Assembly (NCBI RefSeq): GCF_011047315.1
Contig: NZ_CP049259.1
Location: 1,798,001-1,862,000 of the forward strand
DNA length: 64,000 bases
Reading direction: 5' to 3'
From: Altererythrobacter sp. BO-6
Lineage (GTDB): Bacteria; Pseudomonadota; Alphaproteobacteria; Sphingomonadales; Sphingomonadaceae
The notes beneath the pieces are model-generated. The model was not told the DNA's origin and did no database searches. It saw only the letters and a program-made list of their open reading frames with translations. The translations under genes were made by a program, and so were the position numbers. Positions 18,104-34,373 of the stretch are shown one piece after another; position 1 is the stretch's first letter; each line of letters opens with the position of its first letter.

Positions 18104-18526
18104 ATGCTGTTACACGTTATCGCCCGTGGCAAGATTGCGCGCTCGCCCGAGGAAGAACTCGTCGCGCGCTATGCCAAGCGGATCACATGGCCGGTAAAAC
18201 TGACCGAATTGCCTGAAACCGGTGGGCGCATTCCTGATCCGCAGACCCCCTGCAAGACCGTGCTACTCGACGAGAAGGGCCGCAACCTGACCTCCGAAGA
18301 ACTCGCCGAGATCATCGGTCGCTGGCGCGATGACGGAATGCGCGAGGCGCGCTTCGTGCTCGGCGCGGCGGACGGGCACAGCGAGGAGGATCGCGCCGGG
18401 GCAGACCTGCTGCTGGCCTTCGGCAAGGCGACATGGCCGCATCTGCTGGCACGCGCGATGCTGATGGAACAGCTCTATCGCGCTACGACAATCCTTGCAG
18501 GGCATCCTTATCATCGGGCAGGATAG
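18104..18526 (+). CDS. rlmH: 23S rRNA (pseudouridine(1915)-N3)-methyltransferase RlmH
   Basis: A 140-residue SPOUT methyltransferase that modifies helix 69 of 23S rRNA in the assembled 70S ribosome using SAM. Family landmarks are the start MLLHVIARGKIARSPEEELV, the knot region FVLGAADGHSEE, and the terminal ARAMLMEQLYRA followed by GHPYHRAG. A GTG nine bases upstream is in frame, but ATG 18104 matches the family start. Five bases after its stop the EnvC-like gene begins. Confidence 0.95.
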   Translation: MLLHVIARGKIARSPEEELVARYAKRITWPVKLTELPETGGRIPDPQTPCKTVLLDEKGRNLTSEELAEIIGRWRDDGMREARFVLGAADGHSEEDRAGADLLLAFGKATWPHLLARAMLMEQLYRATTILAGHPYHRAG

Positions 18527-18530
18527 GCCT

Positions 18531-19779
18531 GTGACTTTGCGCCAACCCTTTATGCTCGTCGGGCTATTGCTCCTGTGTGCTGCCCTGCTGGCTTTGCTGC
18601 CGCTTGGCGGGCCGACTGGCGCGCTTGCGCTGGCGACGGTTCCGGCATTGAGCGATCCCTCGACTGCGCGCGAAGCGGTAGACCGCGCCGAACGCGCTGC
18701 GCTGGACGCGGCAGAGCGGGCCGAGCGGCTCGAGCGCGAAGCTCAGGAGGCGGGTGCAGCGGCGAGCCGGAGCGCGCGCGAAGCAGCAGCACTGGCCGCG
18801 CGGATCCAGCAGGCCGAGGCCGATATCCTGGCGGCGCAGGCGCGCTACGTCCTCATCGCCGACCAGCGCCGCGTGCTTGATGCGCGGCTGGCCGAGAAGC
18901 AGCAACCGCTGGCGCAGCTGGCGGGCGCGCTGCAGAATATCGCGCGCCGCCCGCTGGTGCTTTCCGCGCTGCAACCGGGGTCGCTCAAGGATACGGTCTA
19001 TGTGCGCGCCGTGCTGGAAACCGCAGCGCCGCAAATACAGGCCCACACTGCGGGCCTGCGCAGCGAGCTTGACCGAGGCCGCGCGCTCGAGCGCGAGGCG
19101 GGTGAACAGCTCGCCCGCCTTAAGAACAGCGAAAGCCAGCTCGCCGAGCGGCGCAACCGGCTAGATGCGCTGGCGTCGCAGCAGCGGCTCGCCTCGCGCG
19201 AGGCACGCCAGATTGCCCAGCGCGAAAGCGAAAGGGCGCTGGCATTGACGGAGAATGCGCGGGACCTTGATGCGCTGGTCGGCGAACTTCGATCGCGCGG
19301 CCAGCCTTCGGCAGGAACTCGCCGCCCTGCCAGGGCCGGTGATCCGCCCTCCGCGCCCCGGCGCGTCCAAGGTGGTGATGACCGCCGCAGCCCGGCCCAC
19401 GCCAAGGTCAACCGGCCTTCCCGCCCCGCTCCAGCTGCCGGTGCAGGGGCGCACACTGGCCGGGTTCGGCGAAAGCGGCGAGGCGGGGCTTGCCGCCACC
19501 GGGCTGCAGCTGGCGCCCGCAGGCGGGGCACAGGTAATCGCGCCAACGCTGGGCCGCGTCGCCTATGCCGGGCCCTATCGCGGCTATGGCGAGATCGTGA
19601 TTATCGAGCACGGCAACGGCTTCACCAGCCTGATTACCGGCCTCGCGCGGGTGACGGTTGCGGCGGGAGACAGCGTGATCGGCGGCAGCCCGATCGGCAC
19701 CGCCCCGCCGCGCAATCCGGCGATTACCTTTGAGCTGCGCCGCGAGGGCAAGCCGGTCAACCCGCTCGACTTCATGTAA
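18531..19779 (+). pseudogene. EnvC-like murein hydrolase activator, split by a one-base frameshift
   Basis: Two overlapping frames together make one EnvC-type protein. From GTG 18531 the first frame encodes an N-terminal membrane or signal segment (MLVGLLLLCAALLALLPLGG) and about 230 residues of coiled coil (AERAERLEREAQEAGAAA and later). At about 19290 coding sense moves one base forward: the first frame stops looking coding after LVGEL, and the second continues DRAASLRQELAALPGPVIRP and then a LytM domain to the stop at 19779, ending TFELRREGKPVNPLDFM. Dropping one base near 19287-19290 joins them cleanly. The LytM domain seems degenerate (no HxxxD zinc pair), as in EnvC activators of amidases. 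It may be a real mutation or a sequence error. Confidence 0.82.
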
Positions 19780-22341: not shown

Positions 22342-22437
22342 GCAGCATCAAAGCGCGGACATTCGCCGCTTCATATGCTATTCAACTGACATGCGGTGTT
22401 ATGCCGCCCAATTGGACACTTTCTCGAGGAATCTGAG

Positions 22438-23034
22438 ATGATCGCTCGCCCACTCGCCGCTTCCCTGCTGGTCGCTGCTCCGCTGCTCGCCGCTGCCCCC
22501 GTCGCTGCGCAAGACACCGGCAGCGACAAGGTCAACATGGTGATTGCCTATAGCGAAGAGGAATGCCCGCAGCCTGAGGGTGACGAGATCATCATCTGCG
22601 AAATCCTGGTGGAGGCCGAACGCTATCGCATCCCGGAAAACCTGCGCAGCAGTGGCAGCCCGCAGAACACCGCCTGGAGCCGCAGGGTCGAAAGCTACAA
22701 GATGATCGGCGCATTCGGCACCATGTCGTGCGATGCGGCCGGGGCAGGCGGCTGGACCGGCTGCACCCAGCAGATGATCGAGGCGGCCTATGCCGATCGC
22801 AGCGAAAGCTCGAAAGTGCGGTTCGGGCAGCTGATCGAAGAGGCGCGGGCCAAGCGCCTCTCCACCATCGACCAAAGCGCGGCGGAGGAACAGGCACGGG
22901 TCGAGCAGATCGAGCGCGAATATATGGAGCGGCTCGAGCGCGAGCGGCAGCAGCCGCTGCCCGGCGAGGAAGCGCTACCTTCCGTGGCCGGCGAGGGCGC
23001 GGCTGAACCCGACAGCGGTCCTGGCGGACAGTAA
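22438..23034 (+). CDS. Secreted protein of unknown function
   Basis: A 198-residue protein with a signal peptide (about 1-24, IARPLAASLLVAAPLLAAAP, cut after VAA). The mature part has five cysteines near CPQPEGDEIIICEILVE and MSCDAAGAGGWTGC, then a charged helical stretch of about 60 residues (EEQARVEQIEREYMERLERE), and a Gly/Pro-rich tail. I do not recognise a named domain, though similar proteins are common in Erythrobacteraceae. The ATG at 22438 is preceded by GAGGAATCTG. It faces the convergent usher-like gene, 16 bases away. Confidence 0.75.
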   Translation: MIARPLAASLLVAAPLLAAAPVAAQDTGSDKVNMVIAYSEEECPQPEGDEIIICEILVEAERYRIPENLRSSGSPQNTAWSRRVESYKMIGAFGTMSCDAAGAGGWTGCTQQMIEAAYADRSESSKVRFGQLIEEARAKRLSTIDQSAAEEQARVEQIEREYMERLERERQQPLPGEEALPSVAGEGAAEPDSGPGGQ

Positions 23035-24204
23035 TCCGGACAAAGCCGGATCAGCGAGATCCGCTGGCGGGGCCCGGTTGAGGACCTTGCCCGTCCTGAT
23101 CGGCCTGTGCGATAACCGGCCGGGGATTGGTGCAGCTGCGAATTTCGATATCGCGCACCACCACATCGGGCTCATAACCCACAGTGATCGTGCCTGGTTC
23201 GACCGGGCACAGATTGAGCCGGCCCGCCTGTTCCGGGTCGATCGACAAGCGATAGCGGCCCGGCAACACCCGTTCGAAGAAGTAATACCCATCCACTTCG
23301 GTGCGCACCATTCCGGCAAGTTTGCCATTCTCATCGGTCAGCGTCAGGCGCACGCCCGACACTTCCTTGCTGCCCGTATCGGAAACGAAACGCGCTACCC
23401 CTTCCACTTCGCTGACCGCCAGCACTGGATAGTCGAGCGCCTGCAAACGCCCGGCGCGCGGCACAACTTCTAGCCCCGGTTTCGCCGGCGCCAGGTTGAT
23501 ATCGGGCAGGCTGGTCGGGTCGATCTGGATCCCGACGCTGCGGCCCGTGCCAAGCCCTTGTACCCGGGCGATGCCGGATGCATCGGTCGTTGCGGTCTGG
23601 TTGAAAGCCACGAAATCGACGTCAGGCAGCAGCTTGTCGCTCGGGCCATAGGTGCCATCGCCGTCCAGGTCCTGGAAGGCGCGCAGGGCCGCCCCGCCTT
23701 GCGTCGCCATGCCCGGACGCGCCATGAACACGCGCTTGCTTAAGGGGTCGCGGCCCAGGCTGAATCCGAGCCGCAAACCAACGTAATAATTGTCGTTCGA
23801 GAAGGTGTAATTGCCATCCAGCGCCAGGCTGAAGCGCTCGAACTCGCGCACCGCCGAAGCCCCGAAGCCGGGGGACTTGCTGGTAAAGTCATAGCTGGCC
23901 GATCCGCGCAGCGAGGTTCGTTCATCAAGGGCATGATCGACTTGCAGACCTGCGGTGGTCAGCTTCGTGGTGGGGGAAAGCTGGTAACCGAGCGAGAGGC
24001 GCGCCCGCGTATCGGAACTGCCGAGCGTCGTCAGGTCGAAATTGCCAAACAGCCGCGCGTTCGCTTCGAAATCGGGCGATTGCGTGCGCGCATAGTCGAG
24101 CGTGTTGGACAGCAGCAGGCCTGAGGAGCGGGTTGAAGCGCGCAGCGAAGCCTGCAGCGTGTCGCGCCCGTCGACCCCGGTATAGTTGCGCAGCCGCGCG
24201 CTCA

Positions 24205-24209
24205 GGGGG
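24205..24209 (-). other. Homopolymer run at the usher frameshift
   Basis: Five G on the plus strand (C5 in the message). With four instead of five the upstream and downstream halves of the usher-like gene read in one frame through VVPLSARLRNYTG. Confidence 0.7.
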
Positions 24210-25779
24210 AACGACCAGGCCGGATACCTCATTGCCCAACTTGAGCGTGGTGTTGAAATCCACTTCGGTCGCGCGGCGCAGGTATTGCAGGCCGATGAAC
24301 TTGGTCTCGTCCGGGAACAGGCCGCTGTATTCGGTGTGGCTCAGCGTTACCGCCGAAGCCCCGAAGCGCCCGCCGATCCCGCCAGCCAACGCTGTAGCGC
24401 CGCCATCGGCAATGCCTACGTCGCCTTTCACGGCCAGGCCGCTGATGCCGGTGCGGATCCCCGCGGAGGTGACCCAGCGGTCTCCTTCGCGCTCGAACCA
24501 GGCGCCGCTCAGCAAGGCGGTGAGACCTTCGCTCACCCCGTAAGCCAACTGGCCGCCCGCGCGCCATTCGCCATATTCGCGCGGCGGGATGAAATCGGGC
24601 GGGGTCACGCCCAGCAGATTGCGCTCACGCTGCGCCGCGCCAAAATTATAGACCAGCTTGCCCTTGGCGACGCGCCCGTCGCCCACGCTGATCCGGCGCA
24701 CGCTTTCGCTGCGCTGGCCCTGCGGCCCGTAGAACACCAGCCGAAACACGTTGAGCCCGAAATCCACCGGCACCTGCAGGAATTCATACTGGCCATTCAC
24801 TGCTTCTCGGGTCGAACCGATCAGCACCTCGTTGCGGTAGAGCTCGACTTCGTATCCGGTCGGCAGGATGCCGCGCAGGTCGACCCGGTCGAACACCGAG
24901 GTCAGCTGCGATTCGGCATTGGTAACGTTGAAGCCGCGCCCGGAGACACTGCGCAGGCCAAGCGGCATGCTCTCGGTCGACACGTCGCCAAACGAGAAGG
25001 CCGTGGCCTTGAGTGGGCCGAGCAATTCACCATCGGGGTCGACCCGCCCCAGTTCGAGCAGCGAGGCAGTGAGGCCGTTCTTGGTCTCACCGCTCAGGAA
25101 GGCTACGGCGGTGAGATATCCCAGGTCGCCAGCGAGTCGCAGGTCCCCTTCGATGCGCGGGCCGTTGCCGCTATCGGACACCGCGCGCAGCTCGACATCG
25201 GCGGCAGGCACGCTCACCGCTTCCCACGGCAGGTCAACGCGTTCGTACTCGCGGCCTTCGGGCCGTCCCTCGCGCGCTTCCAGCCGCTTGCGCTGCGCTT
25301 CGCGCTGCGCCCGCAATTCGAAGGGGAAGGGCTGCAGCGTGGTGATCAGCACCGCCATGGAGCGAAGATCGGCCTTGATCTCGATCGGCAGGAAGCGCGC
25401 GAACTGGTCGATATGGAGATACATCTCGCCTTCGAACGCCGCGACCAGCGACCGGTCGAGCTCAAGCTTGCGGCCTTCGAATTCCAGGATGCCCTGGCGC
25501 AGGTCGATCGACAGCACCCGGTCTTCTTCCAGCAGCCAGCCGTGGGCGTAATGCCCGTCATCGCTGACGGTCAGTGCCAGGTCGAGGATGCGCGCCATGG
25601 TGCCAAGCGGCAGGTACACTCCATCCGGCGTGCCATAGGCGATGATGGTGTCGCTGGCGTCGACACCCTTCACCTTCACTTCCAGGATCAGCTCGTCCTG
25701 CGGGCTGATCACTAGCGGTGCGCCGGAATGGGCGCGCTGTGGCGAGGCGGGCGCCAGAGCTTCGGCGTCTTCATAGAGC

Positions 25780-26333
25780 GGCTTGCCCGTGGCGAAATCC
25801 CAAACGCGGGCCTTCGGTGTTGCGGTTGGCTCAATCTTCTCTGCCGCAGTCGCAGGTGTTGCAGCGGGTGCCTCGGTTTGCGGCTCGCTTTCAACCTGTG
25901 GCGCGGCAGTCACCGGCTCGCTCGCTTGAGCCGTCGCAGCCGGATGTAGCGGCTTGCCGGTGGCAAAATCCCACACCCGCGCGCTGTCTTGCGGCGAGGA
26001 TGATTGTGAAGCGTCGATTTCCTCGCTGGCTAATACTGTATCGACCACTTGCACAGTTTCGGAATGCGCAATTTCGCTTGTGTCGGTGTCAGCCGGGATC
26101 GGTTCTGCGGCCAGCTGGGGCTCGGGGGCGACCGCGATTTCCATCGGTGCGTCAACCTCGTCCGCTACCGCAGCCGATTCGGGTTGATCGACGAGCACCG
26201 GTTCGGGCGCAGGTTCCGCGCCCACCTCTGCAATCGCCGCTGGCGCCGCTTCGCCATTGTCGTTGGTTTCCAGCCCCTGATACGCCGGAGTAACGGGGCT
26301 GATCCGCACCCCGGTGGCAAAGTCCCACACCTT
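25780..26333 (-). repeat. Three VWDFATG peptide repeats in the usher N-terminal region
   Basis: The motif occurs as KVWDFATGVRISP (about 26305-26333), ARVWDFATGKPLHP (about 25950-25983) and ARVWDFATGKPLYED (about 25780-25812), each in a stretch otherwise of Pro/Ala/Glu/Val. Spacing is roughly 170 and 350 bases. The motif resembles a single WD-repeat strand but no propeller is present; role unknown. Confidence 0.75.
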
Positions 26334-27010
26334 GACTGCCGAGCGATCCTCGCTTTGGTCGATTGGATCGCCGAACGGCACCGGAGGCGCTTCTTCGACC
26401 GCCACAGCGGCCTGAGCGATGACGGGCAGCGCCACGGCCGGAGCGGGGGATTCATCGGCTACAACGACAGGAGCGGGGCCGATCGCCACCGCGTCCAGTT
26501 CGCTTTCCGATTCCGGTTCCGCTCGCTCCGCGGCGATTTGTGCAACCGGCTCCGGCTCGTCCATTGCGATCGGGATGGACGGCGCGGCGACGGGCGCCTG
26601 AACGGGCGGCGGTGCAATCACGGGTTCGGCGCGCGGTTGTGGCTTCGGCTCAAGTACGGGCAAAGCCGGTACCACCGGAGCCGCCGGTTCCGGCAACACG
26701 GCTGGCGGCGCGGGTGCGGGCGGCTTTGTCTGCGCAGCGGGCGGCGCTATGACCGGCTCCACCACGGCGGCATCGTTCGCGGCCTTGGCCGGTCTGGCCA
26801 GGCCTGCGGGGGCTTTCGCATTCAGACCGAAAGCGGGCTTCGGGATCTCGGCCCGCTCAGGGGCTGGTTGCTTCTTTGCGCCCTGTTCATCTGGCGAGGG
26901 CATGGGCATGCGTTTGCTCTCGCTATCCTCCTGACGAGGAAGCGAGCACAGCGCGAGGGCAACCGCCCCCAGACTGACGGCGCTGATGTTCCGGATGAGT
27001 TTCCGGTTGC

Positions 27011-27964
27011 TCAAGGCACCACGAATTCTTGCGCGGCGAGCGTGGTGCCAGGCTCGAAGTCATCGTCGACGAATTCGATTTTCAGCCGGGCCCCCGATGC
27101 AACCAGCGCGGGGTCGATTTCGGGATTCACGGCAATCGCGACATCCCTGCTGTCGACCTCGGGATAGACGCCGATGCCCTTGGCAATCGCGACCGGTTCG
27201 CTCGATCCGCGGGCGGTGATCACCACATTGCCATAGGCGGAGCGGGTGCCTGCGCGGGTCAGGGTGAAAGCGATCGCTTTCGACCCATCGGCTTCGGTGA
27301 TGACCGAAGGATTGATGATGCCGGTCTGCAGCGTGGTTGCGCCGATGCGGACGATCACCGGGATGGAGATGCCGAAGCGCGGCCGGATCGACACGGCGAT
27401 GCTGTTCTCGTCGACTTGGCCAGAGGCATTTTCGATGGAAAATCCACCGGCGGCTTGCGGCACTGAGCTGACCACGAAATGCGACCGGTATTCCCCGTCC
27501 GGAACTTCGGCCGGTACACGTGCCATGACGCGGACCAGCTGGGATTCGCTGCCGCGCAGGGCCACCCGGCGCGGGGAATGGCGCAGCAGCCCGCTGGCGG
27601 TCTTGACCCGCGCCTTCATCGTTTCATCGGCAATATTGGCAAACTGCACCACGCGTCCGTCCGCCGTCATCGCCATGTCGACGATCTTGATCTCGTAATC
27701 GCCGTCATTGGTGGTCTTGTTGTAGAGGCCGATCGAAGCGATCTCGCGGCGCCCGTTGAGGACCACGCGTTTCGGGAACAGGTTCACGTCACCCATGCCG
27801 CCGACAGAACCCGCGGGCGGCGGAGGCGGGGCGGGCTGCGCCGTGTTTTGCGTTTCCTGGGCGGTGGAGCCCGATGGTGTGAAGGCAAGGACGCTGGCCA
27901 GCGCGCAGCTGGCGGCCATGATCGCGCCGGTGCGGGCGAGTGGCGTTCGGGATAGCGATATCAT
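27011..27964 (-). CDS. PapD-like periplasmic pilus chaperone
   Basis: A 317-residue protein with a signal peptide (about 1-36) and a Gln/Pro-rich linker (QPAPPPPPAGS), then two Ig-like domains. The first has the usual strand pattern RVVLNGRREIASIGLYNKTT and later LRHSPRRVALRGSESQLVRV, where the Arg-rich pre-G1 strand fits binding of subunit C-termini. It would hold fimbrial-type subunits in the periplasm and pass them to the usher, whose start overlaps its stop by 4 bases. It is longer than classical PapD (about 230) because of the leader and extended second domain. Its ribosome-binding site lies in a hairpin. Confidence 0.85.
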   Translation of the reverse strand: MISLSRTPLARTGAIMAASCALASVLAFTPSGSTAQETQNTAQPAPPPPPAGSVGGMGDVNLFPKRVVLNGRREIASIGLYNKTTNDGDYEIKIVDMAMTADGRVVQFANIADETMKARVKTASGLLRHSPRRVALRGSESQLVRVMARVPAEVPDGEYRSHFVVSSVPQAAGGFSIENASGQVDENSIAVSIRPRFGISIPVIVRIGATTLQTGIINPSVITEADGSKAIAFTLTRAGTRSAYGNVVITARGSSEPVAIAKGIGVYPEVDSRDVAIAVNPEIDPALVASGARLKIEFVDDDFEPGTTLAAQEFVVP

Positions 27965-27967
27965 GTC

Positions 27968-27992
27968 AGGTGACCCCCGGTTTGTGTCACCT
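27968..27992 (-). promoter_or_regulatory. Hairpin enclosing the chaperone ribosome-binding site
   Basis: Perfect seven-base arms AGGTGAC / GTCACCT with an 11-base loop, ending 4 bases before the chaperone ATG. On the minus strand the G5 stretch that would serve as Shine-Dalgarno lies at the loop-arm junction, so folding should limit initiation. Confidence 0.55.
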
Positions 27993-28048
27993 TGTTTATG
28001 ATTTGTTATGGTTAATTACGGGTAAACACCTAGGCGTGCGGCAACAGG

Positions 28049-28597
28049 TCAGAGAAAGACGATTACGACGTCGAATTCGCCGCTGTAAGACCCGGCTTCC
28101 TGGTTGGCCCGAACATTGAGCGTTCCGCCGACATAGAGGTTAAACACGCCGTTTTGATTGGTGCGATTGAACTGGTTCTGCCCGTTGCCGCCACTGGTCG
28201 GGCGGGTGAAGGTTACGTTGTTCACTGTCATCGCGGTGCCGTTGGCGTTCGTGATGAGGAAGCTGGGCGATACCGTAGTCACGAACCGGCTGTTTCGCTC
28301 CCCGATGACAAGGAAACGCGCGGGCGCTCTGACACTGGGGAAAGCGGTCAGGTCAAGCGCGCTGGTGACCGCGCCGGTGTGCGATACCGTTACAGTGGAG
28401 TCGGCCGTCGGCGACGGGAGCGTGCCGAAGCGGAGATCGTCGATAGCTTCGACCTGCGGCGGCTGAACGACCAGCGCCCTGGCCGTGCCATTGATGGTCG
28501 TGGTCTCGCCTGGAGCAGCATGGCCGGCAACTGCCAGACACGCTGCGCCCAGTGCGAAAAGCCCCTTGAGCATTCTGATGGAGTTGGGATGCGCCAT
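28049..28597 (-). CDS. DUF4402-type secreted subunit, fourth of the locus
   Basis: A 182-residue protein with a signal peptide (SIRMLKGLFALGAACLAVAG, cut after HAA), then the DUF4402 pattern: TINGTARALVVQPPQVEAID near the start, LRFGTLPSP, and the C-terminal strand AGSYSGEFDVVIVFL. Conserved beta strands and the GxYSGxxxVxV ending resemble pilus subunits that complement each other by donor strands. AAGGAC lies 9 bases before the ATG. It is separated from the preceding subunit gene by a strong hairpin and lies 84 bases before the chaperone start. Confidence 0.82.
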   Translation of the reverse strand: MAHPNSIRMLKGLFALGAACLAVAGHAAPGETTTINGTARALVVQPPQVEAIDDLRFGTLPSPTADSTVTVSHTGAVTSALDLTAFPSVRAPARFLVIGERNSRFVTTVSPSFLITNANGTAMTVNNVTFTRPTSGGNGQNQFNRTNQNGVFNLYVGGTLNVRANQEAGSYSGEFDVVIVFL

Positions 28598-28614
28598 GGG
28601 GCAGGTCCTTATGC

Positions 28615-28652
28615 GGGGTGGCCGCGCGCCAGTTCAGGCTGGCGGCCACCCC
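28615..28652 (-). other. Strong hairpin between two DUF4402 genes
   Basis: A ten-base GC-rich arm (GGGGTGGCCG) plus a four-base inner pair with a small bulge and TTCAGG loop, located 10 bases after the stop of the upstream subunit and 18 bases before the next start. There is no T run, so a message-stabilising or partial-termination element is more likely than a full terminator. Confidence 0.6.
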
Positions 28653-28662
28653 GAAAGAAGGA

Positions 28663-29166
28663 TCAGTCGTAGGTTGCAGTGACCGTGTAGGTGCCGCTGT
28701 AGCTACCGGCCACCTGGCCGGCGCCAACGGTCAGCTCACCCCCAACGGCGAAGACATCATTGCCGTCGCCGATGATGTCGCCGGCCGATTCGGCATCAAG
28801 GGTAGCGGTCATCGTCTCGGTGCCCCCAGCCCGTGTGAGCGTAACATCGGTGTCGATGTCGATCGTGTAAGCCTGGCCATCCTCACCGCTGACGGTGAAT
28901 TCGTCCGCGCTCGGCGTTGTCGCACCAGCGACCAGGACGACGCCACTTGGGGTGGCGGTGCCGGTGTAGCCGATGGTCACCGTGCCTGACGCAGTGTCGT
29001 CGGGGGCGATGGTGCCGAAATTCAAGCCCGAACCGGTGTTGGTAATCGTGATCGGCGCAACGATCACTGCGGTTGCAGTGCCGGTGGCGTCGTCAGTATC
29101 GCCCGGCGCTGCGGCTGCCGGAAATGCGACGGCGGCCGCAAAGGCTGCCAGAACGATCTTTTTCAT
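28663..29166 (-). CDS. DUF4402-type secreted subunit, likely major
   Basis: A 167-residue protein with an ideal signal peptide (MKKIVLAAFAAAVAFPAAAA) and a Gly/Thr/Ala/Asp-rich beta domain of DUF4402: ATAVIVAPITITNTGSGLNF, GTIAPDDTASGTVTIGYTG, and the end VAGSYSGTYTVTATYD. It has no cysteines in the mature part. It is the most regular member, has its own upstream region of 135 bases with a strong AGGAGA Shine-Dalgarno, and is followed by a stable hairpin; these features suggest the most abundant subunit, which is an inference. Confidence 0.85.
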   Translation of the reverse strand: MKKIVLAAFAAAVAFPAAAAPGDTDDATGTATAVIVAPITITNTGSGLNFGTIAPDDTASGTVTIGYTGTATPSGVVLVAGATTPSADEFTVSGEDGQAYTIDIDTDVTLTRAGGTETMTATLDAESAGDIIGDGNDVFAVGGELTVGAGQVAGSYSGTYTVTATYD

Positions 29167-29251
29167 TACATAGTCTCCTGATGTCTTCTTCGCCCAGCTC
29201 TTGCCGGTGCAGACATAGGTATAACTACGTGGGCCTTAAAAATTGGTTCTT

Positions 29252-29265
29252 AGGGATAAATCCCT
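29252..29265. promoter_or_regulatory. AGGGAT palindrome upstream of the likely major subunit gene
   Basis: AGGGAT and ATCCCT around an AA spacer in an AT-richer stretch about 90 bases before the subunit start at 29166. On the minus strand TTAAGG and TATACC-like hexamers lie between it and the start, so it could be an operator of a promoter there; inference only. Confidence 0.35.
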
Positions 29266-29301
29266 GTTTATCATGCTGTTAGGTGCGTTCCTAAATCGCC
29301 C

Positions 29302-29889
29302 TTAATCATAAGATACAACCACATCCAGTGTCGCCCGGTAGGTTCCGGCCGGTGTCCCACCCGGAATCTGCAGCGTGCCGCCGATTCGGAATCCGTCAGT
29401 CCCGTCGGGCCCTAGCAGGCCGCGAGCACTCTCCCCGCCCAGGCTTTCGGTGGCGACCGAAATTTGCGTTACGGCCAAAAGTGGCGCTGAGCCGCGGACG
29501 GCCTGTGCCGTCGCCTCGGATGGATGCTCGATCCGGTAATGCCGCCCGGGCGCGCCGGTTACTGCGAACTTTGCCGGCTGGGCCCGGCAGAATGCCGTGG
29601 CAGAGCAGCTGGCGGAAAGTGCACCTGAATAGGTGGCTGGCGAGGTCGAGGGAGGCACAGTGATCGATCCGCTGGCATTGGGCGCGACAGCGATCGTGCC
29701 GAATTCCAGCGGCTCAAGTGTCTCAAGCTTGAGCGGGGCAATCACCTCTGCGGTGGCGACACCGACCGCAGTGCCCTCGCTGCCTGGCGCGGCATGCAGG
29801 GGCGCGGCAAGCACGACGGCGGGGGCCGCCGTCAAATGGCGCCAACGCGCTGCAAGGCCCAAGAATGCCCTGATTGTTCCTGCCTCCAC
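29302..29889 (-). CDS. DUF4402-type secreted subunit, second of the locus
   Basis: A 195-residue protein. After an N-terminal export segment (HLTAAPAVVLAAPLHAA, about 17-35) comes the DUF4402 pattern: GVATAEVIAPLKLETLEPLE, FGTIAVAPNASGSI, and the end GGTPAGTYRATLDVVVSYD. Two cysteines (SASCSATAFC) distinguish it from the likely major subunit. The GTG at 29889 is the first start; TTG codons a little downstream are alternatives and the ribosome-binding site is weak. It could be an adaptor or tip component. Confidence 0.78.
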   Translation of the reverse strand: MEAGTIRAFLGLAARWRHLTAAPAVVLAAPLHAAPGSEGTAVGVATAEVIAPLKLETLEPLEFGTIAVAPNASGSITVPPSTSPATYSGALSASCSATAFCRAQPAKFAVTGAPGRHYRIEHPSEATAQAVRGSAPLLAVTQISVATESLGGESARGLLGPDGTDGFRIGGTLQIPGGTPAGTYRATLDVVVSYD

Positions 29890-29968
29890 AATGGCCTGGG
29901 TCGACCATCAGGACGACGCGTGACATTGTCCAGACAGGTAGGCTCCGTAACTCTACCTATGTCCCAAA

Positions 29969-30424
29969 TCAGCGCACCGATACGAGGACAGCGTTAACCG
30001 GGATGGGGATTGCCACCCGCGCGCCGCCAAAGCTGCGGTCGATGTCGAGCCGCCCGCCAACATTGAAGGTCCTGGAGCAAACCCGCTGCAGGCAGTTGGG
30101 CATCTCGATCCGGATGACCTGCCCTGCCTCGATCACGCCATATCCCGGCAGATCGGTCTGGTAACGGCTAAGCTGCGCCACCACGCCCCCGTTGTTAAAC
30201 ACGGGCGCAGCGGAGAAGACCAGCTCGATCACGAGATCCAACCGCTTGCGGCCATTGTTTCCGCGATCATACTGGACGGTAAAGCGCGCTGGCCCGGTGC
30301 CCGTATCGGACAGGGCAAAGATACCCGAGCTGGTGACCGCACCGGTTGGCGATACCTCGCGAAACCCGCGGGAAGGCACAGCGAAAGTGCCGAAACTCAG
30401 CTCTGACTGCGGGATGATTTGCAC
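29969..30424 (-). CDS. DUF4402-like secreted subunit, first of the locus, N-terminus unclear
   Basis: From the GTG at 30424 the frame gives 151 residues: QSELSFGTFAVPSRGFREVS, a beta-rich middle, a Cys pair in NCLQRVCSRTFNVGGRLDI and the end ARVAIPIPVNAVLVSVR. The same frame continues upstream to about 30520 and there encodes an obvious signal peptide (RAKAVLAFAGFGLLSAPAA then QAEPAQ), yet no ATG, GTG or TTG occurs in that frame before the stop at about 30608. So the listed start lacks the export signal, and the real N-terminus needs a rare start codon or a sequence correction. The domain matches its three downstream relatives. Confidence 0.7.
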   Translation of the reverse strand: MQIIPQSELSFGTFAVPSRGFREVSPTGAVTSSGIFALSDTGTGPARFTVQYDRGNNGRKRLDLVIELVFSAAPVFNNGGVVAQLSRYQTDLPGYGVIEAGQVIRIEMPNCLQRVCSRTFNVGGRLDIDRSFGGARVAIPIPVNAVLVSVR

Positions 30425-30630
30425 CTGCGCCGGTTCTGCCTGTGCCGCTGGCGCGGAAAGCAGGCCAAACCCGGCGAACGCGAGAACGGCTTTGGCACGG
30501 CGCCAGGGGCGAGGTTTTGGACGTGCGAAGGAGGGGGGTGACTCAAGATGTGCTGCGGCCCAAAAACCAAAGGAGTTGTGTAACCATAACGTCAGCGGAA
30601 AGCCTTGTCAGCAATCGCGGTTCGCACCTT

Positions 30631-31644
30631 TCAGACCCCGTAATAGTCGCGATACCAGGCCACGAACTGGGCAATGCCATCGCGAACGCCGGTTTGTGGC
30701 GCATAGCCGGTCAATTCGCGCAGCAAAGTGTTATCCGCCCAGGTTGCCGGGACATCGCCCTTCTGCATCGGAAGGTGATACTTGATGGCATCGCGCCCAC
30801 AAGCCTCCTCGATCGCCTCGATGAAATCGAGCAGGCGGACTTTCTCGCCGTTGCCGATATTGACCACCCGCCACGGCGCGGCCGGAGACAGGCTGTCATG
30901 GGCGGAGATCTTGCCGCCCGAACCGGGCGCGGGGGGCGGCGCATCGAGCAAAAGCCTTATCCCGCGAACCAGGTCACTCACGTAAGTAAAGTCGCGGTAC
31001 ATTTCGCCATGGTTGAAGACATCGATCGGCGTGCCTTCGAGCACCTTTCTGGTGAAATCGAAATAGGCCATGTCCGGCCGCCCCCATGGCCCGTAGACGG
31101 TGAAGAAGCGGAACATTGTTGTCGGCAGTTGCCACAGATGGGCGTAGCTGTGCGCCATCGCTTCATTTGCCTTCTTGGTTGCCGCGTAGAAGGTCAGCGG
31201 CGTGTCGCAGGCGTCAGTTTCGGCAAAGGGCATCCGCGTATTGGCCCCATAGACCGAACTGGTCGACGCCATCAGCAGATGTTCGACGGCAAGCTCGCGC
31301 GCGACTTCCATTACATTGAAGGTGCCGACCAGATTGGCATCGAGATAGGCGCGAGGATGTTCGAGGCTGTAGCGCACGCCTGCTTGCGCGGCGAGATGCA
31401 CGATCACGTCGGGCTTTGCGTCGAGCGCCAAGCCGCGCAGGCGGTCGAAGTCCTCAAGCATGCCCTCAACCGCTTCGAAGCGCGCATTTTCCCGCAGCAA
31501 TGCATGGCGCCGACGCTTGAGCTCGACATCGTAATAGTCGGTCAGCCCGTCATAGCCGACCACCGTGAAGCCTTCGTCGAGCAAGAGCTGCGAGAGGTGG
31601 AAGCCGATGAAGCCCGCTGAACCTGTGACGAGAGCTTTGCGCAT
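30631..31644 (-). CDS. NAD-dependent epimerase (UDP-glucuronate 4-epimerase-like), copy A
   Basis: A 337-residue extended short-chain dehydrogenase/reductase. The Rossmann glycine motif GSAGFIGFHL is at residues 8-17, and YAATKKANE with the catalytic Tyr and Lys lies mid-protein, after the Ser/Thr block ASTSSVYGANTRMPF. The DYYDVELKRRRHALL block is typical of the enzymes that turn UDP-GlcA into UDP-GalA. A close paralogue lies at 36458. Here it follows the DUF4402 locus but faces the same way as the sugar transferase upstream, so it belongs to the EPS locus. Confidence 0.9.
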   Translation of the reverse strand: MRKALVTGSAGFIGFHLSQLLLDEGFTVVGYDGLTDYYDVELKRRRHALLRENARFEAVEGMLEDFDRLRGLALDAKPDVIVHLAAQAGVRYSLEHPRAYLDANLVGTFNVMEVARELAVEHLLMASTSSVYGANTRMPFAETDACDTPLTFYAATKKANEAMAHSYAHLWQLPTTMFRFFTVYGPWGRPDMAYFDFTRKVLEGTPIDVFNHGEMYRDFTYVSDLVRGIRLLLDAPPPAPGSGGKISAHDSLSPAAPWRVVNIGNGEKVRLLDFIEAIEEACGRDAIKYHLPMQKGDVPATWADNTLLRELTGYAPQTGVRDGIAQFVAWYRDYYGV

Positions 31645-31711
31645 CAGGTTGCTTTAGCGGGCGAGTTAAGGCTTGGCGAGGCGTGTTGGCGGGCGGGCCC
31701 CACCACCCGAA

Positions 31712-33016
31712 TTACTTTGCACCGATGCCGCGCACCATTACGCGCAGGGTCTTGAGCGCAATCAAAATATCGAGCCACAGCGAGAGGTTCTTTACGTAAT
31801 AGAAGTCGAGCCGCAGCTTGGCATGGATATCATCCAGATCGGTAACATGGCCCTGGTTCACCTGCGACCAGCCGGTAATCCCGGGCCTGACGATATGCCG
31901 ATAGCTGTAGAACGGGATTTCCCCTTCGTGCCATTCGGCCAGCTGGATTGCATCGGGCCGCGGGCCGATCCAGCTCATTTCGCCGACCAGCACGTTCCAT
32001 GCCTGCGGCAGTTCGTCGAGCCGGGTCTTGCGCAGGAAGCGGCCGACACGCGTGATCCGCACGTCGTTTTCCTTGGTCATCGCGTCTTCGCGGCGAGCCG
32101 CCGCGTCATCGGCTACGACCCGATCGTGCATTGTGCGCAGCTTGACCATGCGAAAGGTCTCGCCGCGAAAGCCGATCCGCTGCTGGAAATAAAACGCTGA
32201 TCCAGGTGAATCGAGCTTTACTGCCAAAGCAAGAACGCCGATCACCGGCGCGAGTATCGGTGCCAACAGCAGCACGCTCGCCACATCGAACATGCGCTTC
32301 GCATAGCGATAGGGCAGGTTGGGAATCAGCGAGCCCAGCTCGTTCTCGCGCAAATGGTTGATCCGCACTTCGCCGGTGAGCGATTCCTCGATCAGGCGAT
32401 AGTGATAAACCGGAATGCCCTTGAGTGCGGCCTTGGCCAGTAATCGCTCCCACTCCGCGGGATGATCGTGATGCAGATCGGCGACGATCGATCCGGTAAT
32501 CCCGTCCCGCTCGATCAGGCCTTCGAGTTGCTCGACCGATTCCGCTTCGACAAATCCTTGCTGGCCGAGGATCTGGCCGATCGAGCCACCGGGTATGGTG
32601 TAATGCCTGAGCGCGGGATTGGCATGGCGGATACGCGTGGTAACCAGGTAGCTGATCCCGAGTGTCGCCAGCGAACAGGCGAAGAAAAGCGTATAGGAGA
32701 ATTCGGTGCGCAAGACGCTGTTGCCAGCGAGGATTGCCCCGAACGCGAACAGATTGACCGGCAGGACATAGGATAGCAGCCGCGCCCTCGCGTAGGTGCG
32801 CAATCGCCCCAGCGTATACCAGCAAACCAGGTTTGCGGCGATTGCTTGGCCCAAAGTGAACTGCACATTCGGTTCGGTCAGCGGAACGCCCCGCCAAAGC
32901 GCCCAGAGTGCTGCCGGCAGCAAGATCCCGGAAAAAATATAGAAAGCGATCTGCTCGGTCACGCTCATTAGTGGCGCAGACTTGGCAGTCGCAAGGGAAA
33001 CCGGCGGGCGATTCAT
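31712..33016 (-). CDS. EPS initiating sugar-1-phosphate transferase (polyprenyl-phosphate glycosylphosphotransferase)
   Basis: A 434-residue membrane enzyme that starts polymer repeat synthesis by moving a sugar-1-phosphate onto undecaprenyl phosphate. There are about four to five N-terminal spans (residues 20-150), a CoA-binding-like middle domain, one span near YAKRMFDVASVLLLAPILAP, and the C-terminal bacterial sugar transferase domain with YFQQRIGFRGETFRMVKLRT, RKTRLDELPQAWNVL and WIGPRP. ATG 33016 is preferred over the TTG 17 codons earlier. It is separated by 152 bases from the VanZ-like gene. Confidence 0.92.
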   Translation of the reverse strand: MNRPPVSLATAKSAPLMSVTEQIAFYIFSGILLPAALWALWRGVPLTEPNVQFTLGQAIAANLVCWYTLGRLRTYARARLLSYVLPVNLFAFGAILAGNSVLRTEFSYTLFFACSLATLGISYLVTTRIRHANPALRHYTIPGGSIGQILGQQGFVEAESVEQLEGLIERDGITGSIVADLHHDHPAEWERLLAKAALKGIPVYHYRLIEESLTGEVRINHLRENELGSLIPNLPYRYAKRMFDVASVLLLAPILAPVIGVLALAVKLDSPGSAFYFQQRIGFRGETFRMVKLRTMHDRVVADDAAARREDAMTKENDVRITRVGRFLRKTRLDELPQAWNVLVGEMSWIGPRPDAIQLAEWHEGEIPFYSYRHIVRPGITGWSQVNQGHVTDLDDIHAKLRLDFYYVKNLSLWLDILIALKTLRVMVRGIGAK

Positions 33017-33168
33017 GGGAATTCCGGATTTTGACTTTCGAGCAATTGGAGAAAGACTGACCGGCAATTAGGCGCGCTTCCGGACAATCGCAAGAATTCG
33101 CGGCTCAAGAGTTCCTGACCGACAGCTAGGCAAGGCAGGCTGTCGGATTCCGACAAAATCAAAAGCCA

Positions 33169-33558
33169 TTAGGATGGTGAGTTAGTTGGGCGAAACAGTG
33201 TCCTTGATACGCCTGCCATCGCCAGAACAAAGCCAATTGCAAAGACGTCTGCAATCCAGTCTGCAAGGCTCGGCTCGCGCCCGATGGCGGGCAAGGATTG
33301 CAGAAACTCGATTGCGGCGCCGAGCAATGCCATGGCGCCCATCAAATACCAGGCGGATGCGCGCGGATAGGCGATGCGCGCCAGCAAGGTCAGAACAGCA
33401 AAAGCCGCCATATGGACCAGCTTGTCGGACGGGTCGCCCGGAAGCCTCGGGGGCTGAGGCAGGCAGGCCATGACAACCGCGAACGCAATGGCGGCGTAGA
33501 GCGCAAGCCGCCACAAACGCGCCCAGGGCAGCGTTTCCTTGTCGAGTTGTGATGCCAT
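33169..33558 (-). CDS. VanZ-like family membrane protein
   Basis: A 129-residue protein with about four membrane spans and the VanZ signature DKLVHMAAFAVLTLLAR and GAAIEFLQSLP followed by SLADWIADVFAIGFVLA. The ATG at 33558 overlaps the TGA of the NusG-like gene by one base, so it is coupled to it. VanZ-like proteins are often found in EPS loci, their role unclear. A longer frame to 33633 would run into the NusG-like gene and is not used. Confidence 0.88.
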   Translation of the reverse strand: MASQLDKETLPWARLWRLALYAAIAFAVVMACLPQPPRLPGDPSDKLVHMAAFAVLTLLARIAYPRASAWYLMGAMALLGAAIEFLQSLPAIGREPSLADWIADVFAIGFVLAMAGVSRTLFRPTNSPS

Positions 33559-34073
33559 CAGCTCGCCAGCCTGAGATCGCCACGCGACACCAGCACCCGC
33601 GTCTGCTTGCCCATGATATCGAGCAGGACCCATGCGCGTTGATCGGGCCCAAGCTTGACGATGCGCCCCCAGAAATCGGCCAGTGGACCATTAGCGATGC
33701 GAATCTCGTCGCCTTCCGCCATTTCGGTTAGCGGCCCCATGCACCCATCGTCGTCGCAATGGCGCTGCAGCTCTTCGACAATCTCCGACGGCACAGGGGC
33801 CGGGCTTGGGCCAAAACTGACAAGACGCGAAACGCCAAGAGTTGAAGCGATCTCGCGCCAAGGCGCGGCGCCATCACCCACCTGGACAAATAGGTAGCCC
33901 GGAAAGAACGGGCGGGTCGCGCTGATGAACTTGCCGCCCCGCGCCCTCGTTATGCGTTCAAGCGGGCAGAACACATGGAATCCCTGCCGCTCGAGGTTGC
34001 GCTGCGCAATCGCTACCGAATTTGGTTTGACCTGGGCCAGGTACCATAAATCTGTAGTTTGAGAGAGGTCCAT
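33558..34073 (-). CDS. NusG/RfaH-like transcription antiterminator
   Basis: About 171 residues from ATG 34073 (the frame is open to a GTG at 34154). It has the NGN domain (WYLAQVKPNSVAIAQRNLER, then FFPGYLFVQV) and a C-terminal KOW domain (MAEGDEIRIANGPLADFWGR). It is shorter than housekeeping NusG and lies in the EPS locus, so it is a specialised paralogue that probably keeps polymerase going through the long operon. Two sequences on the transcribed plus strand (36283 and 46574) match the ops core that RfaH recognises. The divergent MarR regulator begins 300 bases away. Confidence 0.9.
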   Translation of the reverse strand: MDLSQTTDLWYLAQVKPNSVAIAQRNLERQGFHVFCPLERITRARGGKFISATRPFFPGYLFVQVGDGAAPWREIASTLGVSRLVSFGPSPAPVPSEIVEELQRHCDDDGCMGPLTEMAEGDEIRIANGPLADFWGRIVKLGPDQRAWVLLDIMGKQTRVLVSRGDLRLAS

Positions 34074-34373
34074 CGGGGAGGGCGTTCGTCCTTCTGTCGC
34101 TTCCCAGTGGCGGCAATATTGCTGCACCGCAAGTAGATTGGTCGCAAAAAACACTCGGCAAGGCTTGCCAGCTTTTCCAATTCACCAAGCGCCGCGACTG
34201 GCGGCCCCAAAGTTATTTCCGGCTTCGAGATTTTCTCTTGATCGACGCCAACATCATGCTAGCGCTCAAAATTGAACGATGCAACTTTCGAGGCGCATCC
34301 TGTCCGACAACCAGATCCCCGGGGCTGCGCGCTGCAGGCCTCGTGCGGTAGCCTGCCTGAAGTCCTAGCGCCC
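34074..34373. promoter_or_regulatory. Divergent intergenic region between the NusG-like and MarR genes
   Basis: About 300 bases with no credible gene. It holds a 13-base palindrome at 34157-34169 (GGCAAG, G, CTTGCC) and a ten-base palindrome at 34113-34122 (GCAATATTGC). Both divergent promoters must lie here; the first palindrome would suit a MarR-type dimer, but no experimental site is known to me. Confidence 0.5.

Follow-up and report, generated by a model that had tools for sequence, protein, structure and literature searches.

In a 64,000-nucleotide stretch of the Altererythrobacter sp. BO-6 genome (contig NZ_CP049259.1, positions 1,798,001 to 1,862,000), called the window below, we studied a locus resembling a chaperone–usher (CU) system. 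On the minus strand, from ~30,600 to 23,051, four genes for DUF4402 proteins are followed by a chaperone gene and then an usher gene. The initial annotation of this DNA had placed these six genes consecutively on one strand, with a chaperone of the PapD type; the open reading frames (ORFs) bear out the arrangement, and the Pfam searches bear out the four DUF4402 proteins. The features are as follows.

29969..30604, minus strand: subunit 1, a divergent DUF4402 protein and proposed tip subunit (PF14352, E 1.1e-10; the extent is that of the open frame).
29302..29889, minus strand: subunit 2, DUF4402, pilin-like, 195 residues with a GTG start (PF14352, E 3.5e-20).
28663..29166, minus strand: subunit 3, DUF4402, pilin-like, 167 residues (PF14352, E 8.6e-27; predicted local distance difference test score of the model 89.8).
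28049..28597, minus strand: subunit 4, DUF4402, pilin-like, 182 residues (PF14352, E 1.1e-24).
27011..27964, minus strand: putative periplasmic PapD-like chaperone, 317 residues (from profile comparison and conserved residues).
25725..27014, minus strand: N-terminal extension of the usher, Pro/Ala-rich, ~430 residues, with three VWDFATG copies (from sequence and alignment).
24212..25724, minus strand: predicted N-terminal domain, plug and first barrel part of the usher (from alignment, a codon-usage hidden Markov model and a relative's model).
24195..24232, minus strand: one-base break of the usher reading frame, located at a short C run (from ORFs and the codon-usage model).
23051..24232, minus strand: remaining barrel and C-terminal domains of the usher, 393 residues, the last domain SdrD_B/CarboxypepD_reg-like (from ORFs and Pfam).

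All four subunits matched PF14352 above its cut-off (E 9e-27 to 1e-10), and a genome-wide search found no further match at E ≤ 0.001. The usher start overlaps the chaperone stop (27011-27014). As single proteins, the chaperone and usher of the window gave no convincing match to a chaperone or usher family in Pfam, and their identity therefore rests on profile and structure comparison. The Pfam usher profile PF00577 was matched by none of the 18 ushers of the family at E ≤ 0.1; the BO-6 genome had no match to it, and in the 13 of 61 related genomes with matches, other loci were responsible.

Sequence-profile searches of the PDB missed CU proteins, and the significant PDB hits of the usher profile were SdrD-like and NOMO-like domains that matched the usher tail. 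The predicted model of an intact relative's usher, on the other hand, matched the FimD/PapC barrel (E 4e-28). The model consists of a barrel with a plug, an N-terminal domain, which aligned loosely, and two C-terminal domains, and by eye ~24 barrel strands could be counted on its DSSP line. Aligned with FimD, model residues 171-778 gave a root-mean-square deviation of 4.8 over 473 residues and model residues 171-872 one of 8.9 over 547 residues. The barrel predicted for the large protein is thus present, as tested on the relative's model, and its Pro/Ala-rich front was confirmed at ~430 residues; the Ig-like end, which had been taken for an addition, corresponds to normal usher C-terminal domains, being alignable to those of FimD. 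A reading of the protein as a surface adhesin, suggested by the SdrD-like tail, was countered by the same structure match. Among the best 50 of 457 rows of a Foldseek search against viral proteins, none was named usher.

A PapD-like chaperone was found, as far as sequence comparison can tell, beside the usher. The family profile of the chaperone matched that of seven chaperones encoded beside PF00577 ushers (probability 98.3, E 1.7e-14), and each of the seven had been reached by the family profile beforehand in single searches (E 2.9e-7 to 4.2e-5); the sequences of our sets A7 and A8 were chosen since family profiles had already touched them. At E ≤ 0.1, PapD_N was found in 6 of the 18 family members, 2.8e-6 being the best value, and had no match in the window chaperone; when the chaperone was searched as a single protein, neither the PDB nor Pfam returned an informative match. 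Three residues, Pro131, Arg66 and Glu158, are invariant in all 18 chaperones. From an alignment with FimC and EcpB, we read the first as the probable superfamily proline and the other two as likely equivalents of R8 and E83 of PapD. A V-x-I-x-L strand (residues 189-193) lies at the position of the FimC donor strand.

The structure search with the predicted DUF4402 model of subunit 3 returned CU pilins in 49 of the 50 best PDB rows. When the model was aligned to CU pilin domains, the N-terminal extension fell outside the predicted strands. Both this extension and the pilin-like C-terminal residues are conserved in the alignment of DUF4402 subunits, subunit 1 excepted (alignment A4 contains 59 rows hand-picked from the loci and from 120 listed proteins, subunit-1 types excluded). 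We take the C-terminal Gly/Tyr to be the zipper motif of pilins, for which a literature search returned no paper. Outside the first position, a C-terminal Gly/aromatic pair was found in 166 of 191 subunits of 80 named loci, the best 80 of 355 relatives in a scan of named genomes with the chaperone.

The linkage of DUF4402, chaperone and usher genes that had been suggested as a check was found in other genomes, and because gene order and linkage recur in relatives, the locus is not a chance arrangement. Among 61 related genomes, the three components were confined to the identical 16, BO-6 included. The named relatives include Erythrobacter, Qipengyuania, Novosphingobium, Sphingorhabdus, Sphingopyxis and their kin; in the 80 named loci, DUF4402 lay upstream of the chaperone in 79 and the usher downstream in 77, the four exceptions having the chaperone at or near a contig end. 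A class sample of 289 genomes, for which the surroundings of at least one DUF4402 match were fetched per genome, had DUF4402 in 12 others, and in 10 of these a fetched stretch also contained chaperone and usher, in some cases on different strands; in one genome (G341), they were in one of the five stretches first fetched. From a phylum sample of 299 genomes, 7 others matched DUF4402, of which two below the cut-off (G377 and G422) were excluded from the locus check. All five above it, two from outside the class and three from the same family, had chaperone and usher beside a DUF4402 match, the usher match of G577 being weak (E 0.0025). Some genomes that lack a PF14352 match nevertheless have usher loci recognised by the usher profile: of 7 such loci fetched, 5 have DUF4402-like neighbors by our own profile (best per locus E ≤ 2.6e-6), and with it no such neighbors were found at L183 and L187, nor at L189, a second locus of G296.

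Two observations on the distribution stand apart. At six places (L058, L059, L060, L061, L062 and L193), DUF4402 genes occur as orphans, one to three together, with no chaperone or usher in the fetched stretch and with a DUF4402 CU locus elsewhere in the host genome; they are possibly unlinked subunits. The G341 genome (loci L048-L052), of the same class and only 0.9 Mb, has 14 DUF4402 matches, an unusual load for its size.

In a maximum-likelihood tree of 30 ushers, the 15 DUF4402-linked sequences were split from 15 others with a support of 100/100. The latter comprised three E. coli K-12 ushers (FimD, ElfC and EcpC) and a further 12 from relatives, of which at least two (L063 and L065) lie beside SCPU genes; the tree has long branches and uneven letter make-up, is drawn with midpoint rooting, and the beta, kappa and pi clades are not represented in it. 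The comparison set A6 comprised 13 of the 14 PF00577 loci fetched, L069 being excluded as cut by a contig end. A separate, well-supported group of the tree holds nine ushers of L066-L076 with weak to moderate PF00577 matches and varied subunits, which may be another little-studied CU group.

Six CU usher clades are distinguished in PMC3559732. With the gamma clade (FimD/FimC/FimA), the DUF4402 system shares the usher fold, which aligns to FimD, an Arg like R8 of PapD together with the invariant Glu and Pro of its chaperones (in our alignment), and the pilin-like C-terminal Gly/Tyr of the subunits. It differs in that the usher misses PF00577, branches apart and has a long Pro/Ala-rich N-terminus, and in that the chaperones lack the G1 Lys and have 42-52 residues from Glu to Arg in the F1-G1 stretch, against 37 in FimC by hand count. 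With the alternate alpha systems (EcpABCDE, CFA/I), it shares the CU logic, CfaB being among the DUF4402 fold matches; the lengthened F1-G1 stretch also resembles the long F1-G1 loop that PMC4133393 gives for FGA chaperones. The same paper reports a disulfide in their C2-D2' insertion, whereas none of the 18 DUF4402-linked chaperones has a Cys after residue 30, and EcpC, a single usher on a long branch, groups with the other ushers.

A further likeness to be weighed is that to the archaic sigma systems (Csu, CupE). The locus could be an ordinary member of these, with DUF4402 merely a divergent spore-coat-U-like pilin: the DUF4402 and archaic-type subunit profiles match (probability 96.1), one SCPU subunit (L063) touches PF14352 (E 0.0072), a C-terminal AG-x-Y pattern is common to both subunit types, and CsuA/B and CupE are among the PDB fold matches. 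Nevertheless, the subunits belong to PF14352 and not PF05229, none of the four window subunits had an SCPU match in Pfam, the ushers evade PF00577, and their branch is fully separated from the SCPU-linked ushers as well as from FimD, ElfC and EcpC. We consider archaic membership unlikely. Fold and homology class the locus with the CU systems, outside every branch tested. As to the chaperones, the non-classical anchor Arg described in PMC4654587 is off the equivalent place in the DUF4402-linked ones by an ungapped alignment, with an Arg two residues earlier in 17 of 18.

With the usher and subunit folds, the homology, the motifs, the linkage and the separate usher branch computed here, we consider it very probable that the locus is a CU operon of a distinct branch in which the DUF4402 proteins are the pilins and assembly proceeds by donor strands. 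The proposal of the initial annotation, that DUF4402 domains work as donor-strand subunits of a separate CU pathway, is supported by fold, motifs and profile homology and is further backed by the usher tree and the conserved linkage. Several observations weigh against it. The Foldseek E values of the subunit are weak (best 1.3e-3, none ≤ 0.001) with TM scores mostly of 0.3-0.5, intimin ties for the top VIA Z (8.3), and Ig-like folds are common. The C-terminal Gly/aromatic pair is found in none of the 29 first subunits of loci with at least four subunits. Two of the 12 class-sample genomes (G204 and G171) have no chaperone or usher in the fetched stretch. The usher of the window is frame-broken, and those of L044, L051 and L103 are split too. 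Finally, the classical G1 Lys of PapD is replaced by an invariant Pro, and an ungapped alignment has an invariant His where the non-classical anchor Arg is expected, with an Arg two residues before that His in 17 of the 18 chaperones. Since PMC4654587 describes a conserved Arg89-type carboxylate anchor for non-classical (archaic and alternate) chaperones, the anchor appears to fit neither published set cleanly.

A working order of assembly can be outlined for such a system. The DUF4402 subunits would enter the periplasm via Sec. There the chaperone would hold each of them as an incomplete Ig fold and fill its groove with a G1-type strand, the alternating V-x-I-x-L. The chaperone–subunit complexes would then pass to the usher, which would be a gated barrel in the outer membrane that has a plug, an N-terminal domain and two C-terminal domains. 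The alternating N-terminal extension of the incoming subunit would replace the chaperone strand there, and the fibre would grow outwards; we infer from the motifs both that the chaperone complements the subunits with a donor strand and that strand exchange follows in the fibre. Subunit 1, having only ~14 residues between signal peptide and domain by eye, may be a tip subunit without a donor strand, a role proposed because it lacks the donor extension. The corresponding stretch has a median of 19 residues in first subunits and 33 in others (measured in 29 of 29 and 183 of 191 subunits, with a crude cleavage rule). Subunit 1 would thus go first and form the tip, with subunits 2-4 next, although this order is deduced. 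By analogy with the family, adhesion or biofilm growth is the probable function of the fibre.

The usher could instead have a non-fibrous role and export the DUF4402 proteins to form a coat or short surface adhesins of a few units each, instead of long pili. In 38 of the 71 measured loci, just one or two DUF4402 genes are present, and subunit 1 is without a donor extension, as such a role would allow. One self-polymerising subunit, however, is enough for CU fibres, as in Caf1, and the subunits other than the first mostly retain the C-terminal motif. We regard the non-fibrous role as quite improbable and retain the donor-strand fibre as the preferred reading.

Usher length increases with the number of subunits (Spearman 0.61 over the 71 loci), although the correlation is confounded by kinship and is mostly a contrast of two groups. 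The ushers have 893-943 residues in loci with one or two subunits, 903-1334 with three, 953-1361 with four and 1204-1370 with seven. The additional residues are those of the Pro/Ala-rich N-terminal extension, which makes the giant usher the form that goes with many subunits. Within this arm, a VWDFATG-type motif is present in three copies (26336-25780, minus strand); of 120 ushers examined, 6 retain two or three copies, these being the closest ones, including the entry of the window.

We rate the DUF4402 system as a new and widespread CU branch, not found in the literature searched. Searches for DUF4402 and PF14352 found neither in any of the literature covered, subscription journals lying mostly outside, so its absence is unproven; for environmental Sphingomonadales, no CU pili were named in the titles and abstract openings searched, and none describes a DUF4402 system. 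More tentatively, and with considerable doubt on our part, it could be a seventh main CU branch, common among Sphingomonadales and extending to other Proteobacteria, that has a pilin family and a chaperone anchor chemistry of its own and a many-subunit form whose long disordered usher arm perhaps extends into the periplasm to gather or sort several kinds of chaperone–subunit complex. The results propose a concrete role for DUF4402, a domain of unknown function, and indicate a surface-fibre system in environmental Sphingomonadales. As this branch escapes the standard usher profile, counts of CU systems can come out too low, and the many-subunit form, with an extension-less first subunit and a long usher arm, makes CU subunit ordering testable in a new setting.

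The usher had been described as a single protein of ~1320 residues. This does not hold within the window, where it consists of two ORFs in different frames, 27014-23925 (1029 residues) and 24232-23051 (393 residues); in all 17 usher loci first fetched from related genomes (L026-L042), the usher is unbroken. The codon-usage model placed the switch at 24,212, with the coding signal persisting on both sides and the 5' ORF off frame beyond ~24,212. The five closest relatives in the protein database have 1296-1429 residues, and the entry matching the window genome has 992. Because relatives read the usher in one frame, a programmed frameshift was rejected. Among the split ushers elsewhere, L044 and L051 come from the class sample; of the 77 named loci with an usher, one (L103) has it split in two, one (L124) has it starting 1060 bases late, four reach the locus edge and one enters masked sequence.

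The break could mean that the copy is decaying or switched off, the more so as subunit 1 has no in-frame ATG, GTG or TTG ahead of its signal peptide, where the nearest relative has an in-frame TTG. The 64 kb contain 25 frame switches on the same strand, however, and at two of these the upstream frame runs on well beyond the switch before it reaches its stop, namely at 24,212 (288 bases) and at 19,287 (446 bases). The latter splits a gene at 18495-19779 (plus strand), which has a first part that we read as coiled-coil-like and a last part matching Peptidase M23 (E 6.8e-18), a layout known from EnvC-type cell-division factors. A gene of this kind is not expected to be lost, and since this second, unrelated gene of the window is split the same way, sequencing error is more likely than decay as the source of the usher break. 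The usher break also sits at a short C run, and the other four genes are intact. We lowered our rating of decay when the break at 19,287 came to light and now give it a small, if real, chance.

Convergent with the usher lies a 212-residue ORF (22396-23034, plus strand), the start of which resembles a signal peptide and for which Pfam gave no match. Directly upstream of the locus, on the minus strand (30631-34154), genes for an NAD-dependent epimerase, a bacterial sugar transferase and a NusG-like factor form an exopolysaccharide-type neighborhood.

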